Shown: one piece after another, positions 4,845-19,424 of the stretch
Layout of the letters: the number at the start of each line of letters is the position of its first letter
Numbering within the stretch: position 1 is the stretch's first letter
DNA from: Candidatus Magasanikiibacteriota bacterium
GTDB taxonomy: Bacteria; Patescibacteriota; Patescibacteriia; Magasanikbacterales; GWA2-37-8
Length of the DNA: 33,950 bases
Assembly: GCA_943359595.1 (NCBI GenBank)
Contig: CALRIA010000006.1
Coordinates: forward strand, 1-33,950
Direction of reading: 5' to 3'
The notes under the pieces: generated by a model
Told to the model about the DNA's origin: nothing
The model's database searches: none
The model's input: the letters and a program-made list of their open reading frames with translations, nothing else
Program-made: the position numbers and the translations under genes

Positions 4845-4884
4845 AATAATAAAAGAGCGTTCATGTGAACGCTCTTTTATTATT
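4845..4884 (+). terminator. Intrinsic terminator after the MacAB-like operon
   Basis: AATAATAAAAGAGCGTTCA-TG-TGAACGCTCTTTTATTATT, a near-perfect 19-bp inverted repeat with T-rich 3' side. Confidence 0.9.
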
Positions 4885-4911
4885 GACAAAATAGTGATTT
4901 TGTGATATTTT
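4883..4911 (+). promoter_or_regulatory. Sigma70-type promoter for gene at 5028
   Basis: TTGACA (4883-4888), 17-nt spacer, TATTTT (4906-4911). Confidence 0.6.
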
Positions 4912-4937
4912 AAACAATCGCTTTATTTAATTTTCGT

Positions 4938-5014
4938 CATGTTTAGAATAATAAATTTTTATTGCTCTAAACATGGCCGAAATGGAATCGGTCAGTTGCG
5001 TGTCTTTTGACACG
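4938..5014 (+). promoter_or_regulatory. Structured 5' leader with three consecutive hairpins
   Basis: CATGTTTAGA..AATAAA-TT-TTTATT..TCTAAACATG (4938-4975); GGCCGA..TCGGTC immediately after; CGTGTC-TTTT-GACACG just before the SD AAGGGG. Confidence 0.65.
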
Positions 5015-5027
5015 AAGGGGTAACTCA

Positions 5028-5495
5028 ATGAATCCGCGTAAGGAACGCAATATCGTGTTGGCTTTGGCTTTGGCCGAAGCTGACAGTGCGACCTTCGAGA
5101 CTGTCTGGTCGTTGGTGTTCGGCACCAAGACCCAGTGGCATGGTCTGCTTGAAAAGGCCGCTGTTTCGGTGAATGGCTTCAGCGAGGAGCGGTTCCCGTT
5201 GGAAAAGTCGCCCACGTCAAACGGTGTGAATGAAGTGCCGTTTCCTATGGAGTGCAAGAACGGCAAGGATGCCGTTAGCAAAATGGTGTCTGTCCACAAC
5301 TTCGTCGGTCCTGGATCGGCTCTGCTCTACATCGCCACGCGTGAGAGTAAGTGTCTCAAGCTCGTGATCTCGGGTTGTACCTGGAACGGGGAGGACGGCC
5401 ACACCTATGTGGCGGTCTACGATCGCCTGTCTAGTTCTATCTACCTCGAGCTCATCGACGAGCTCGACTCCAGCTACACTTTCCTCGTTCGCTAA
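5028..5495 (+). CDS. Orphan protein of unknown function (155 aa), atypically GC-rich
   Basis: MNPRKERNIVLALALAEADSATFETVWSL...SSYTFLVR; SD AAGGGG upstream of ATG 5028; base composition clearly richer in GC than neighbours. No family recognised. Confidence 0.75.
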   Translation: MNPRKERNIVLALALAEADSATFETVWSLVFGTKTQWHGLLEKAAVSVNGFSEERFPLEKSPTSNGVNEVPFPMECKNGKDAVSKMVSVHNFVGPGSALLYIATRESKCLKLVISGCTWNGEDGHTYVAVYDRLSSSIYLELIDELDSSYTFLVR

Positions 5496-8700: not shown

Positions 8701-9552
8701 TTATTGTTCACGGTTCATCACGAATGGAACCACTTCGCTCAGCGAATGAATCAGGGTGGCGCGTCCAGGGTTGGCCGCGATGAAATCCAATTCATAGCTG
8801 GGCGTGAACTGGTTGATAACCAGACCAATTCGCGCACCACGCGTAAACGGCAGAGCGAGGTCGAGTTCAAAAATGTCACCAATGACCGTGATATCTTTCC
8901 ACTCGATACCATGCATTACGCGTAGACGCTCGAGAATGTCATGATATGCGGGACGACGCAGATAGACTGGACGATAAAGCCCAGAGATCATCATCGATTC
9001 GGCTTCACCATCAACTACGTACTTCTTGGCACCGCCAATCACACGTTCGCACATCTTCTCAATTCCAGGATTGTCATTGCTCAGAGCAATGATTTTCTTG
9101 CGGACACTTTCCGTGTGAGAGTTGGTGACAACGTAGGTTTCTACCATCTCAATTGCACACAGATCAGAGAGCATTTTGCCAGCCCCATCCTTGAACACTA
9201 TATCGGAAAGTGAATAGTTGTTCGAGTAGAGGAAACCAAGCAAACGCTCCCTGTCTGAAATATCCAGGAAAGCTCCAAAATGATCGAGCACCTTCCGCGC
9301 GACAGCCATCGTGCGCAGATAAGGATCAACCATTGCCGGAGCCACGATGAGTCCATTGCACAACCAACCATTTTTCTCGGGGTTGGTGGCAATTTCGATT
9401 TCTGCTGATTGCAGAATTGGGCTCACTTCTTCTGGGTTTTTTCCTAGAAGAAGACAGAGATCTTCTATATATCCTGCCACGGCCGGTTTGCCTTCTTTTT
9501 CGGCGTCACTGAATGTTCCATCGAAATCTGCTACCACAAGTTGCTTTTCCAT
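8701..9552 (-). CDS. HAD-superfamily hydrolase
   Basis: MEKQLVVADFDGTFSD (DxDGT), VVTNSH (motif II), VIGDIFELD (motif IV). SD AAGGAG at 9561-9566 suggests start at 9552 rather than the ORF-track start 9585. Confidence 0.85.
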   Translation of the reverse strand: MEKQLVVADFDGTFSDAEKEGKPAVAGYIEDLCLLLGKNPEEVSPILQSAEIEIATNPEKNGWLCNGLIVAPAMVDPYLRTMAVARKVLDHFGAFLDISDRERLLGFLYSNNYSLSDIVFKDGAGKMLSDLCAIEMVETYVVTNSHTESVRKKIIALSNDNPGIEKMCERVIGGAKKYVVDGEAESMMISGLYRPVYLRRPAYHDILERLRVMHGIEWKDITVIGDIFELDLALPFTRGARIGLVINQFTPSYELDFIAANPGRATLIHSLSEVVPFVMNREQ

Positions 9553-9573
9553 GACCATTTCTCCTTGGTGTTG

Positions 9574-9594
9574 TGAGCTAGACAACCTAGCTCA
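9574..9594 (-). promoter_or_regulatory. Leader hairpin of HAD-like gene
   Basis: TGAGCTAG-ACAAC-CTAGCTCA, perfect 8-bp stem upstream of the SD. Confidence 0.6.
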
Positions 9595-14645: not shown

Positions 14646-14674
14646 TTGACAAAATCACTAATTCGTGCTATACT
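14646..14674 (+). promoter_or_regulatory. Strong sigma70-type promoter
   Basis: TTGACA (14646-14651), 17-nt spacer, TATACT (14669-14674). Confidence 0.75.
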
Positions 14675-14679
14675 CATTA

Positions 14680-14845
14680 GTTATTGGATTGAATAACATA
14701 AATTGGCAAATCGTACCTTTACAAATATTATCGATCTTGTGTGTAAATTGGCTAAACATGGTTGTTTGGTCGATTTATGCACAAGATTCAGTGTGCAGTT
14801 TGGTGATTGGCCTATAGTGACAAGTGTTCGCTAATGGTTGGTTAC
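14680..14845 (+). promoter_or_regulatory. Long structured 5' leader with three hairpins, two rich in G-U wobbles
   Basis: GTTATT-GGATTG-AATAAC (14680-14697); 26-bp stem 14733-14788 with loop TGGT; GTGATTGGCC..GGTTGGTTAC enclosing TAGTGA..TCGCTA (14803-14845); SD GGAGGT follows at 14858. Confidence 0.7.
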
Positions 14846-14868
14846 TACCTTTGGTTTGGAGGTTCTAG

Positions 14869-15066
14869 ATGAAGACCGTAAATGCTTTGCTTTACATCGT
14901 GATCCTTGTTCTGTTGTTGACAATCGTCTGTGTCGCGCCGTTCAAGCTCGGCTGTGGTACTCTCGGTACTGCTGTCACGCTTGGCGCCAGCGTGGCCGCG
15001 ATTGGGTGGTTGTTGCTTTTCAAGCGGATATTCCGCACGTTCGAGGACACCCCCTCCCAGCAGTAA
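14869..15066 (+). CDS. Small two-TM membrane protein (65 aa), atypically GC-rich
   Basis: MKTVNALLYIVILVLLLTIVCVAPFKLGCGTLGTAVTLGASVAAIGWLLLFKRIFRTFEDTPSQQ; SD GGAGGT 5 nt upstream of ATG 14869. Confidence 0.75.
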   Translation: MKTVNALLYIVILVLLLTIVCVAPFKLGCGTLGTAVTLGASVAAIGWLLLFKRIFRTFEDTPSQQ

Positions 15067-15185
15067 TAGGTTTTTGGACTTCTCCTGTGCCTCAGCACAC
15101 AGATTGTCAAAGGTCGAGCTAGATTTTTTATAGCTCCCAATGATATCTAAAAAAGTCTACTCCCAAAAAAGGGGAGGGACTATCG

Positions 15186-15246
15186 CAAGATCGTCCCAAC
15201 TCGTTTTCATCATAATTCATTTGTGATAAAAACGAGGACGATCTTG
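15186..15246 (+). terminator. Compound 3' hairpin
   Basis: CAAGATCGTCC[CAA]CTCGTTTT..ATCATAA-TTCAT-TTGTGAT..AAAACGAGGACGATCTTG. Confidence 0.7.
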
Positions 15247-15256
15247 AATAAAAATT

Positions 15257-15288
15257 AAAACACATCAACTTAATTGTTGATGTGTTTT
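15257..15288. terminator. Intrinsic terminator, probably bidirectional
   Basis: AAAACACATCAAC-TTAATT-GTTGATGTGTTTTTTT between convergent genes. Confidence 0.85.
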
Positions 15289-15303: not shown

Positions 15304-15822
15304 TTATTTTATAGTTGCAGTATTTATTTGTGGCGACAATTTTTTTATCATCTCATATCCACCTATCAACACACTACTATAAAATAAGTCACCGAATAAT
15401 TCGTTATGCCAGAAGGGAATGGCCAGATAATAACTTTGAAACAGCCCGGATAAATTATGAGTGTACATTGTTCCAAACGCCCAGACGGCGGTATTGGTAA
15501 GTAAGAAAAATATCACACTGCCGGATATTGCACCGAGTATAATATTACCCAGTTTAATTTTATTTTTTAGATATCGTCCCAATAAAACGGTGATAGCAAA
15601 ACCAAAATAAACCGAAGCCATAATGTATGGACTGTAAAAGCCAATAAAAATGTCGCTGACAAACATCGCAATCATCGGTATGGCCATAGCCTGTTTTTTG
15701 TTCAAATACAAACCACTAAAAAGAGCAATCGCTCCAATAGCGGTAAAGTTCGCCGGGTGCGGAACAAAACGAGTAGCAACAGCTAAAATGATTAGCAAAT
15801 AAATAAGAATATTTTTGGACAT
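15304..15822 (-). CDS. DUF6580-like integral membrane protein (possible ECF S-component-like)
   Basis: LAVATRFVPHPANFTAIGAIALFSGLYL..MIAMFVSDIFIGFYSPYIMASVYFGFAITVLLGRYL; multi-TM, last gene of the riboswitch-led operon. Confidence 0.65.
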   Translation of the reverse strand: MSKNILIYLLIILAVATRFVPHPANFTAIGAIALFSGLYLNKKQAMAIPMIAMFVSDIFIGFYSPYIMASVYFGFAITVLLGRYLKNKIKLGNIILGAISGSVIFFLLTNTAVWAFGTMYTHNLSGLFQSYYLAIPFWHNELFGDLFYSSVLIGGYEMIKKLSPQINTATIK

Positions 15823-15862: not shown

Positions 15863-18649
15863 TTATATCACGTTGCGAAATAATCTAAAACCGATATAGG
15901 CTCCAACGATGAGAGCACTACCGCCAGATATTTCTAAGATTTTTTTAACGTTTCTTTTGGTCGGAGTATCTAGTGGGAGATTGTCCAATGTTTTATTTTC
16001 GTCTGTCTGTGGTTTGCCAGCACTCAACTCTTGTTGTGGTTTTTCGATGTTTTCTTTTTTTATATTTTTAAATATAGTTTTAGTCAATTTAATTTCTGGT
16101 TTTGTTTGGGTGTTTGTATTTTTTGGTGTAATAGTATTGACGGTGGCAGTAGTAGCCGCCAAAGCTGTAGTGGTAGATATAGTCGTAGTTGTGATGACTT
16201 GGGTCGTACTAGTGGATATTATAGTTGTAGTTGTTATGGTTGTAGTAGTAACAGATGTTAATGCACTCCCGCCACTAAATATTGGTGTAGGTGCAGTGGT
16301 CATTGATTTAGGTTCTAATATAATTGGCCAAGAAAGTCCTAATAATGCTGGTACTGCATGTTTGGTTCCAAACCAATCTACACCACCATCCCAAGATTGA
16401 GTGAAGTGATCATTGTCCAAAGCGGTTAAAATATACCATGGATTTTTTCCGTTGGAGTTGAACCAATTTGTTTGATTTTCACCCAAAGCATTAATTCCCA
16501 TCATTGCCCAGCCGGTAGTGAGAGCATCGGAAACGCCGTAACCCCAACCACCATCAGTAAGCTGTTGAGATTTCAGATATTGTTTGGCTTTTATGAAAAT
16601 GTTTGCGTCTATAGTAGCACCATTATTTTGAGCGTATTTCAAAGCATTTATGGCTGCACCGGTAAGATCTGCTGATTCGTATGGACCTGGATAGGCAAAA
16701 CCACCATCGGCTTGTTGGTTTGTTTTGATGGTCGTTAGAGTGGTCTGAACTACTGGAGAATTTTGATCTTCTCCAATAGCGATAGCCGCAATCAAACCAA
16801 AGACATCATCATTAATTCCAGTTTGTCCAAAATTATTATTTTGTACGCAGGAATTTAATTTAGTTTTTAATGTCATTATTTTGGAATCATTTTTTGATAC
16901 GCCACTGGCGAGTAATCCTAAGATATGACGAGGATAGGCGGCACAGTTATTGAGCTCATTATCAAGTAAATTATTGTCATAATTATATACATAATTATAA
17001 AGTGATGATGTACCATTTTTTATATCATCGGCGTAGATATTTTTGGCGGCAAAGGTTATCGCCAACCAATCCGAAGTTCCTCCATCCACAATTTTCCCAT
17101 CGCTACCTTGATTAGATTTTATGAAGGTGATTAATTTATTTACAGTGTCATTGATTTTTATATCGGAAATAATTTGGTTACTGTTTCCACCTGGCCCACC
17201 TCCAGTGCCAGGATTTGTACTGGTAGTAGATGTAGCGTTTTGCTCAGTGCTGGTTGGGTACAACGTCATTAGTGGACTAGAGGCAAACCCTATTTTTCCA
17301 CCATATATAGTTATTGTATTAGTGGAAGTAATTGGAAAATAAAATGTGCCATTATTATTTTCAACTAGTGCATCGTTTATTAACAGCGTGCTACTAGTGG
17401 CTGGGTTCCAAGTCGGACTAAAAGATTGGTCAAAGCCAAATTGTTCCAATGTGATCGTGCTGGTTGACCCCACGATTGGTGTAGATGTGTTGGCAGTGAT
17501 TTTTAATGGGAGAACGTCATATGTTAACAACAAACTTTCATTTAGAGTTAAAATGTGTTTGTTTAGAGCTGTTTGTCCGTAATTCAAATCATTAAACCAA
17601 TTCCAGTAAATACCGTTATTATTTTGATTGTTTTGGTAAGAATTTATTGAATTTAAAAACATGTCTGTGCCAAAAGTTGACCAATCAGTTGTTAGCCCAG
17701 ATTGTTTTAGAGTACACATAGCGTTTAAAGTAGAAGTTTGACTGCCGTCGATTTCTGGGCAAGCTGTTACAGGTAAATTTGAGAATGAGAAGCCTTCTTG
17801 GCTAGTCACAACATTTAAATTTATTGATGTGGTGGCCGCTGTATTTATAGGGGCTGGATCAGGAGTGGAAGTGACATCTGGCGAGGATGTTGGTGCTACG
17901 TAAGGCTCAAAAGAAAAGTTCTTGACAATCAATTCGCTAGTAGTCGCGTTAGTCGGTGTAGAGCCATTTATTTGCCAAAAATTTATATGAGCACGTTCAG
18001 AAGCATCTTGGAAGTTTACTGATCCATCGCCTTGTTCGTATCTTTTCCAGCCAGATCCAATATCGAATCCACTTTCATCAACTGTGCGAAAAGCCACCGA
18101 GTCAGGTTTCCAGTCTATAATATTTTTTGAAAAATCATTGTTTAAAGATACGCTCTGATTTAGTTGGTTGAGATCATTGTATGGTTCAGGTTGTACGGTG
18201 TAGTGTAAATTGGTACTATTAGGAATTTGCCAATAAGAATATTCAATATCCAATTCGTGCTGGTCATTTTTATATATAAAAGGAGCGGCTACTAGGTTGG
18301 CATCAATTTTATCTACGGGAGATTCAAAATCAAAAGTATATTTTCCATATCCCAGAGAATGATCCAAAGTTACCTCAGAGGAATACCAACTTCCGTCTGG
18401 ACGTTGAGAAACGAATAGATGTAGTTTGCCATTAGTATCAACATTTACATCATTCTGGTCATTTGCAACTGTACTTCCCCAACTATTTCCTCCTGGGCCC
18501 ATTGTTTCTCCTGGAGCTGTTTCTTTAACGTCCCAAGTATATTTGGAAAAATCAACTGTACGTGCGTAAACTAAATTAACACCAGATGATAAACTGATTA
18601 TTATACCAACGACTATCAATAATTTGTTTTTAAAATTTAGCTTTTTCAT
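15863..18649 (-). CDS. Large surface-anchored multidomain protein: signal peptide, GH16-like domain, DUF4430-like domain, alpha/alpha-toroid (prenyltransferase/transcobalamin-like) repeats, Thr-rich stalk, C-terminal TM
   Basis: HELDIEYSYWQI (GH16 ExDxE); INLNVVTSQEGF..GIYWNWFNDLNYGQTALNKHILTLNESLLLTYDVLPLKI (DUF4430-like); QADGGFAYPGPYESADLTGAAINALKYAQ and QQLTDGGWGYGVSDALTTGWAMMGINAL (toroid repeats); VTTTTITTTTIISTSTT stalk; terminal hydrophobic segment. Confidence 0.8.
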   Translation of the reverse strand: MKKLNFKNKLLIVVGIIISLSSGVNLVYARTVDFSKYTWDVKETAPGETMGPGGNSWGSTVANDQNDVNVDTNGKLHLFVSQRPDGSWYSSEVTLDHSLGYGKYTFDFESPVDKIDANLVAAPFIYKNDQHELDIEYSYWQIPNSTNLHYTVQPEPYNDLNQLNQSVSLNNDFSKNIIDWKPDSVAFRTVDESGFDIGSGWKRYEQGDGSVNFQDASERAHINFWQINGSTPTNATTSELIVKNFSFEPYVAPTSSPDVTSTPDPAPINTAATTSINLNVVTSQEGFSFSNLPVTACPEIDGSQTSTLNAMCTLKQSGLTTDWSTFGTDMFLNSINSYQNNQNNNGIYWNWFNDLNYGQTALNKHILTLNESLLLTYDVLPLKITANTSTPIVGSTSTITLEQFGFDQSFSPTWNPATSSTLLINDALVENNNGTFYFPITSTNTITIYGGKIGFASSPLMTLYPTSTEQNATSTTSTNPGTGGGPGGNSNQIISDIKINDTVNKLITFIKSNQGSDGKIVDGGTSDWLAITFAAKNIYADDIKNGTSSLYNYVYNYDNNLLDNELNNCAAYPRHILGLLASGVSKNDSKIMTLKTKLNSCVQNNNFGQTGINDDVFGLIAAIAIGEDQNSPVVQTTLTTIKTNQQADGGFAYPGPYESADLTGAAINALKYAQNNGATIDANIFIKAKQYLKSQQLTDGGWGYGVSDALTTGWAMMGINALGENQTNWFNSNGKNPWYILTALDNDHFTQSWDGGVDWFGTKHAVPALLGLSWPIILEPKSMTTAPTPIFSGGSALTSVTTTTITTTTIISTSTTQVITTTTISTTTALAATTATVNTITPKNTNTQTKPEIKLTKTIFKNIKKENIEKPQQELSAGKPQTDENKTLDNLPLDTPTKRNVKKILEISGGSALIVGAYIGFRLFRNVI

Positions 18650-19238
18650 ATTTCCAAGTTATTAAATCATTATTTTTTAAAGTGTATATTGATATGCCCA
18701 TCTTGGCCGATTGACCGTTGATGTAATAGATCCAGTATTCTCCGGTTTGATTATTGTTTTTTAACCAGTCAATTTCTTCTAAAAATTCTCCCATGCCACT
18801 AAACTCTTTCATAGTCGCGCTGATTTTTTGATCAGTAACTAATTTTTGCATCGCATCATAGGCAGTGGCTTTGTCCGGAAGTTGAAGTGAATATTTTTTG
18901 TCGGTTATTTCTATTGTGACATTGATTGGATTTTTTATTTCTTCATTTTTGATGTCTGGTTTTTTGATTATTTCAGTGGTCGTGGTTGTGGTATCAATTT
19001 TTGTAACGGCGGTGTTGGTATTTTTTTTATCAACTAATTTAGCAGTCGCAGTAGTCGATACCGCCGGCTGATTTTCTGAGATAGCCGTATTTGTAGCTAC
19101 ATCAGACCAAGTGATATTTTGTGGTGGTGGTTGTGTAACTATTTTTTTTGGTTGGTCTGATAAAAGTAGATAAGCACCACTGGTCAAAAATACAAAAATG
19201 AGGATAGAAAATAGTCGCGCCAGGTGTTTATTATGCAT
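18630..19238 (-). CDS. Exported DUF4430 (transcobalamin C-terminal-like) domain protein
   Basis: N-terminal hydrophobic segment; INVTIEITDKKYSLQLPDKATAYDAMQKL..SGMGEFLEEIDWLKNNNQTGEYWIYYINGQSAKMGISIYTLKNNDLITWKYEKAKF. ATG at 19238; ORF-track start 19247 is a TTG. Confidence 0.8.
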   Translation of the reverse strand: MHNKHLARLFSILIFVFLTSGAYLLLSDQPKKIVTQPPPQNITWSDVATNTAISENQPAVSTTATAKLVDKKNTNTAVTKIDTTTTTTEIIKKPDIKNEEIKNPINVTIEITDKKYSLQLPDKATAYDAMQKLVTDQKISATMKEFSGMGEFLEEIDWLKNNNQTGEYWIYYINGQSAKMGISIYTLKNNDLITWKYEKAKF

Positions 19239-19253
19239 ATTGTGCAATAAATT

Positions 19254-19282
19254 AAAAAAATCTTTCCCGATACGAAAAGATT
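19254..19282 (-). terminator. Rho-independent terminator forming the riboswitch expression platform
   Basis: Minus strand AATCTTT-TCGTATCGGG-AAAGATTTTTTT between the aptamer and the first gene; TCGGG in the loop can pair with upstream TCCCGA (plus 19303-19308). Confidence 0.65.
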
Positions 19283-19311
19283 CAAAAAGAGAATACTCCT
19301 GCTCGGGATAA

Positions 19312-19404
19312 CTGTTATTTGAAGACCGGACTTGTCCCTGAACTAGTCAAGGCGTTACCGTTGCGGCACAGTGGAGGAATAGACCTCACTTCCACAAATA
19401 ACAG
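19312..19404 (-). ncRNA. Cobalamin riboswitch (short form)
   Basis: Minus strand: P1 CTGTTATTTG..CAAATAACAG (perfect 10 bp); core GGAAGTGAGGTCTATTCCTCCACTGTGCCGCAACGGTAACG resembling the B12-box GGAA..GGTG.AA.TCC..ACTGT.CCGCAAC.GTAA; then AAGTCCGG. Confidence 0.85.
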
Positions 19405-19424
19405 ATAAATTGTTCTTAGTTGGT

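Follow-up and report, generated by a model that had tools for sequence, protein, structure and literature searches.

The leader of a gene for a 65-aa membrane protein in Candidatus Magasanikiibacteriota contains a 26-bp stem, and this locus raises the question of whether the stem is a genuine RNA structure and, if so, what it does in the mRNA. The stem was analysed by folding, strand comparison, and covariation within the window (the whole stretch of DNA under analysis, 33,950 nucleotides of contig CALRIA010000006.1). On the plus strand it spans 14733–14788, with the 5′ arm at 14733–14758, a TGGT loop at 14759–14762, and the 3′ arm at 14763–14788; the coordinates and sequence given by the initial annotation proved exact on re-inspection. 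The annotation had also claimed that all 26 positions pair in plus-strand RNA through about six G-U pairs, that the minus-strand RNA would be mismatched, and that the stem lies between a consensus promoter and the Shine–Dalgarno sequence (SD) of the membrane protein gene, all of which was borne out. As plus-strand RNA, 26 of 26 positions are paired, six of them as G-U (−33.0 kcal/mol), whereas only 20 pairs are left in the minus-strand RNA (−13.6 kcal/mol). The promoter (14646–14674, plus strand) consists of a −35 TTGACA, a 17-nt spacer, and a −10 extended by TG (TGC TATACT), and matches the consensus at 11 of 12 positions; the motif count by itself is not proof, as chance alone would give 2.7 sites over the region scanned. 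An SD (GGAGG, 14858–14862) and an ATG (14869) were found 3′ of the stem, and the ORF that follows (14869–15066, plus strand) encodes a hydrophobic product.

In each of the seven stems examined, the transcribed strand paired better than its complement; the G-U asymmetry is thus a general one. No U-tract lies 3′ of the stem, which is followed by CAGTGTGC instead; the stem is therefore not an intrinsic terminator, and the strand asymmetry, together with the missing U-tract, led us to reject a DNA palindrome as well. The stem is one of the three longest in the 933-kb genome, and the whole leader (14680–14868) folds at −62.7 kcal/mol (z = −6.3), a value that none of 200 shuffles attained. A BLAST search with the promoter and leader recovered L002, a paralogous copy from the same genome, and L006, a syntenic copy from G004, a genome of the same genus, where it lies in front of a 37% identical small protein. 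The leader at G004:C1 (L015) has an architecture in common with the window leader, and a further stem copy lies within the G004:C1 array (L216); L234 and L215, from a third genome (G003), were recognised by inspection. The homologous leaders numbered five, from three genomes within a single Candidatus Magasanikbacteria genus, and six sequences including the window were aligned. Loss of pairing in these leaders had been set beforehand as the result that would refute selection on an RNA structure; instead, pairing was kept in 95.8% of pair cells, and 12 of the 24 aligned pairs carry compensated two-sided changes. None of 500 shuffles equalled the alignment on any of five measures, the signal was lost when one arm was slid by 1–3 columns, and covariation was also present in the extended leader. 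Between loci the stem sequence differs; what recurs is the geometry, namely a length of 20–27 bp, a short loop, and a position 60–100 nt before the ATG, with 5–32 nt between the boxA-like motif and the stem in leaders that have the motif. One stem family stands behind a promoter at some loci and behind a hammerhead ribozyme in a polycistronic array at another, demonstrating that the module is reused before different genes and fitting a stem that acts in the mRNA. The two-sided changes, the general strand asymmetry, and this reuse support the claim that selection has acted on an RNA structure. Most homologs belong to one genus, and all genomes are metagenome assemblies without RNA data. Collectively, the comparative evidence indicates, in the absence of transcript data, that the stem is a real, evolutionarily conserved RNA structure in an mRNA leader.

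Several other elements share the leader with the stem. A 5′-terminal hairpin (GTTATT-ggattg-AATAAC, 14680–14697, plus strand), predicted by folding at the expected transcription start, covaries (GTTAAT/ATTAAC in L006), and the promoter and leader start are 80–82% conserved at G000:C9 and G004:C2. The boxA-like motif (14713–14725, plus strand) is degenerate in the window (GTACCTTTACAAA) and canonical in the homologous leaders (GTTCTTTACAAT). It borders a deletion, and the deleted part, a terminator module between the promoter and the stem, is present in L002, L006, and L015. Judging from the aligned sequences alone, the window leader has lost this module through a deletion that also damaged the boxA-like motif. 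In the three leaders that retain the module, a GAGAG hairpin loop (TTTGAGAGAG) is complementary to the CTCTC arm of the downstream terminator hairpin (CTCTCTCAAA), with a compensatory change in L015, and the terminator hairpin and the complementary loop form a candidate attenuator. This complementarity is what would recommend the leader as a ligand- or factor-sensing attenuator or riboswitch with the stem as part of its expression platform. However, the window lacks the module, neither a U-tract nor an obvious alternative pairing was seen for the stem, and the window leader had no Rfam match at gathering or relaxed thresholds; we regard this explanation of the stem as quite improbable.

Downstream of the stem is a second leader hairpin (14803–14846, plus strand) with a conserved loop, (A)CAAGUGUU, and a covarying stem; among the sequences scanned, only these leaders carry this loop on a stem of 4 bp or longer. 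Neither the SD nor the ATG is part of the 26-bp stem, and a hairpin thus stands between the 5′ end and a free SD. The 65-aa hydrophobic product and its long structured leader could suggest a type I toxin–antitoxin system, in which the leader of a small membrane toxin would block translation, but the stem does not pair with the SD or start, a homologous leader precedes proteins of 147 and 164 aa, and leaders of the same kind precede enzymes and lipoproteins, so that we give this idea almost no credence.

The 65-aa gene is GC-rich (0.54) and belongs to an orphan family, with a syntenic 77-aa relative of 37% identity in G004 and no Pfam or PHROG family. Its cassette sits between an upstream gene for a 477-aa protein and a convergent gene; by the orthologs of the 477-aa gene, the window falls within Candidatus Magasanikbacteria, Patescibacteria. 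A relative whose 477-aa protein is 84% identical lacks the cassette, and there the flanking genes are approximately 45 nt apart vs. 733 nt; in another relative (L113), a different GC-rich gene occupies this site. Cassettes that vary in this way between genomes would suit a stem that is a DNA-level feature (the end of a mobile element or a recombination hairpin) or a chance palindrome. Against this speak the better pairing of the transcript strand in all seven stems, a covariation that includes G-U pairs, a position fixed relative to the promoter or ribozyme and the SD, and the leader z-score of −6.3, which together leave such an origin very hard to defend.

A structured 3′ UTR element (15067–15162, plus strand) follows the gene. 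It is homologous to the 3′ UTRs of hammerhead-punctuated arrays and covaries, with two-sided changes in 7 of 17 pairs, and both ends of the window mRNA are therefore structured. This conserved, multi-helix RNA, found in the window, G004:C1, G000:C9, and G003:C151, contains GGGAACAG, GUYGAG, and CUGAAAAAGUCU and is without an Rfam family. Further downstream is a bulged stem, CAAGATCGTC-CCAA-CTCGTTTTCATCA (15186–15246, plus strand), closely similar to the element that ends the G000:C9 array. Stem families with a 4-nt 5′ bulge (CCUA/CCAA) were also seen before the terminators of GC-rich genes in G000 (C1, C7, C16, C20, and C21); they occupy the place where hammerheads sit elsewhere and are possibly a processing site. 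A bidirectional intrinsic terminator (15257–15288, plus strand) ends the cassette. Elsewhere in the window, a locus at 18630–19420 (minus strand), with 15863–18649, has an AdoCbl riboswitch upstream of genes for a 205-aa lipoprotein-like protein and for a surface protein of 928 aa that contains repeat-like domains; the locus adjoins an ECF-type membrane component (15304–15822) and looks like one for B12 capture.

Examination of the whole genome (932,867 bases, 36.1% GC) revealed that the 65-aa gene belongs to a larger class of about 30 mostly orphan ORFs of 0.48–0.62 GC within AT-rich contigs; the mean GC of long ORFs in the genome is 0.36 (sd 0.04). The GC cut-offs were hand-chosen, and the starts of the GC-rich genes were assigned from the SD and start codon. 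Codon use in the class departs strongly from that of the rest (TTC 0.64 vs. 0.12; AAG 0.62 vs. 0.13). The codon bias of highly expressed genes was rejected as the cause of the GC-richness, since translation and transcription genes do not share it (CGG 0.00 vs. 0.22), with the proviso that the comparison set was small and motif-selected (ribosomal-protein, RNA-polymerase, EF-Tu, and a few other ORFs). Most genes of the class have no Pfam family; a phage origin was rejected, as five class proteins had no PHROG match and the 65-aa protein no tblastn match to phages. Synonymous shuffling of the GC-rich coding regions showed only a modest shift in folding (mean z −1.5 vs. −0.7).

Many of the GC-rich genes are preceded by a TTGACA...TGcTATACT promoter of their own and by an AT-rich leader containing a boxA-like GTTCTTT, a 17–27 bp hairpin, and an SD that is left free. 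Enrichment of leader stems at the GC-rich genes holds both in the same genome (8/32 vs. 13/240, p = 1e-3; MWU p = 2e-5) and at loci in other genomes (9/41 vs. 4/68, p = 0.015; Mann–Whitney 1e-5), although only the 8 of 32 leaders in its own genome reached the strict stem threshold. An unbiased k-mer count returned GTTCTT(T) as the top k-mer of the GC-rich leaders (12/32 vs. 8/240 normal genes, p = 6e-8) and TTGACA as the second; GTTCTTT was likewise enriched in other genomes (11/41 vs. 3/68, p = 1e-3), and a clear GTTCTTT is missing in approximately 60% of the GC-rich leaders of the same genome. These counts establish the enrichment of the boxA-like motif and the association of the stem with the motif and the GC-rich class. 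The motif GTTCTTTACAA resembles boxA. A clean boxA was not found in the rrn leader on the contig that was read, which leaves the boxA consensus of this genome undefined. A group I intron was observed inside the 23S rRNA gene (L093:7939–8129; G000:C32). The genome encodes both nusB and rnc (RNase III), which overlap in one operon (L270, G000:C7); a single NusG match was obtained, and no NusG paralogue was found. The window holds a second cassette of this kind (4883–5495, plus strand), with a promoter at 4883–4911, a long stem at approximately 4924–4988, and a GC-rich ORF of 155 aa at 5028–5495. A further GC-rich cassette (8701–9585, minus strand) encodes a HAD-like protein and ends in a recurrent 3′ stem family (TCACTCG..CGAGTGA). 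The GC-rich cassettes of Patescibacteria, with their own promoter, hairpin leader, structured tails, and, in relatives, hammerhead ribozymes at the mRNA ends, are a class undescribed so far; no papers on GC-rich genes or hammerheads in Patescibacteria/CPR were found in a search that left most subscription journals and preprints uncovered.

The Rfam scan gave no hammerhead match in the window or its leader. At relaxed thresholds, it detected type III hammerheads with intact cores in homologous loci, those of the sister loci (RF00008) having perfect CUGAUGA/GAAA cores and a type III fold. The G004:C1 array opens with a promoter and leader; gene A is followed by a hammerhead and a stem, gene B likewise, and gene C by a hammerhead and a terminator. 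The first inter-gene stem, before gene B (L216), is of the window stem family and lies 3′ of a hammerhead. G000:C9 carries a shorter version of the array with the bulged stem at its end. The hammerhead-punctuated GC-rich arrays occupy G004:C1:82335–84950 (L015, L216, L192, L209), G000:C9:16480–17982, and G003:C151:5239–8321, and in G004 and G003 the last hammerhead precedes an intrinsic terminator. Of 86 order-level genomes, 18 contain hammerheads (E ≤ 1e-3), as do 26 of the 382 examined at the phylum level (E ≤ 1e-4); the 14 control genomes yielded none. At the order level, 23–24 of 27 loci (some of them weaker matches) lie approximately 40–340 nt after the stop of an ORF with a GC of at least 0.49, mostly with a terminator next, and the phylum-level loci show the same tendency. 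Across the Patescibacteria loci listed as L192–L227 and L242–L269, the hammerhead is mostly 20–200 nt after the stop, and the ORF is usually GC-richer than its surroundings. Most of the hammerhead E-values are below the Rfam gathering score, and their reality rests on the intact cores and the non-random position.

What, then, does the stem do? We lean, by a little, toward a 5′ insulator or stabiliser within a boxA-type leader that serves GC-rich cassettes lying between terminators in the AT-rich Magasanikbacteria genomes, a function inferred without transcript, cleavage, or half-life data. Such a leader would comprise, in order, the 5′-terminal hairpin, a boxA-like GUUCUUUACAA, the 20–27 bp stem, the CAAGUGUU hairpin, and a free SD. 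The stem would work after transcription as a long, sequence-independent helix, shielding the mature 5′ UTR from nucleases and preventing the SD region from misfolding with RNA that lies upstream (an attenuator, a ribozyme remnant, or the previous cistron); the boxA-like motif would most likely recruit NusB/S10, allowing RNA polymerase to complete structured, rare-codon genes. Stabilisation, insulation, and antitermination by the leader are all inferences, and the window itself, with no hammerhead and a degenerate boxA-like motif, counts against this model, as do the GC-rich leaders that fall short of the strict stem threshold or have no clear GTTCTTT and the missing clean boxA in the rrn leader.

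Two rivals remain live. In the first, the stem would be a boxB analogue in a nut-like antitermination signal, bound together with Nus factors on nascent RNA and letting polymerase read through both the leader terminator and the GC-rich gene. The boxA-like motif 5–32 nt upstream of the stem, the terminator hairpin just upstream of boxA in three homologous leaders, the encoded NusB, and the precedent of the LoaP dfn leader hairpin (PMC12691694) all favor it. Yet the stem differs from protein-bound boxB or dfn hairpins in that its sequence and loop are free to vary from locus to locus, and only one NusG was found; in addition, boxA could not act on terminators that lie upstream of it, and the window keeps the stem although the terminator and canonical boxA are lost. 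We consider it unlikely, if still worth pursuing. In the second, the stem would be a substrate of RNase III, whose cut would trim the leader and set the mature 5′ end and turnover, as in rRNA processing stems. A near-perfect dsRNA of 20–27 bp and the presence of the RNase III gene agree with this, without cleavage data, but a second cut would be redundant 3′ of a hammerhead, and no conserved cut-site sequence was seen, so that we hold it to be doubtful.

On a wider scale, it seems an even call whether the GC-rich, foreign-codon genes of Patescibacteria have mRNAs built as discrete RNA units, with a 5′ end made by a promoter or a ribozyme, a boxA and long-stem leader, a structured 3′ UTR, and a 3′ end made by a hammerhead. 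If so, a system of mRNA processing punctuated by ribozymes would exist in nature, giving bacterial hammerheads a first general role, and the very reduced Patescibacteria would maintain a second gene class, distinct in composition and with an expression design of its own. The stem points to chromosomal genes with hammerheads at defined mRNA boundaries, beside covarying stems, and at such boundaries cleavage, 5′ and 3′ ends, and stability are directly testable.

Long-lived bacterial mRNAs can carry ompA-type 5′ stabiliser stem-loops, and the leader resembles these in its 5′-terminal hairpin and strong 5′ UTR stem upstream of the SD; here, however, the stem is a common module of a whole compositional gene class. 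With the boxA leaders of rrn and lambda nut it has in common a strong promoter followed by an untranslated stretch with a GUUCUUUACAA-like motif, in a genome with NusB, but the genes are monocistronic or on short mRNAs, a long sequence-variable stem follows boxA, and the motif, whose antitermination function is putative, is degenerate in the window. The LoaP dfn leader hairpin, which is needed for processive antitermination (PMC12691694), is similar in adjoining a leader terminator; in contrast, no NusG paralogue and no small UNCG-type hairpin were found here, and the stems are variable. Earlier bacterial hammerheads have been described as intergenic and often phage-linked, and their role as an open question (PMC6155905); those of the sister loci have the same type III core and fold but sit at the 3′ ends of, or between, GC-rich chromosomal genes, with none in the window. 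RiboJ-type engineered insulators place a hammerhead and a 23-nt hairpin upstream of the RBS in terminator-framed cassettes and reportedly both insulate the mRNA and stabilise it (PMC6993053). The relatives have the same order of hammerhead, hairpin, free SD, and ORF in a cassette between terminators, and the window has the hairpin between its 5′ end and a free SD. The differences are that this arrangement is natural, that the stem is 20–27 bp and preceded by a boxA-like motif, and that the window leader begins at a promoter without an upstream ribozyme, whereas the L216 stem does have a hammerhead upstream. If the mRNAs are indeed discrete units, these cassettes would be the natural counterpart to engineered RiboJ cassettes.
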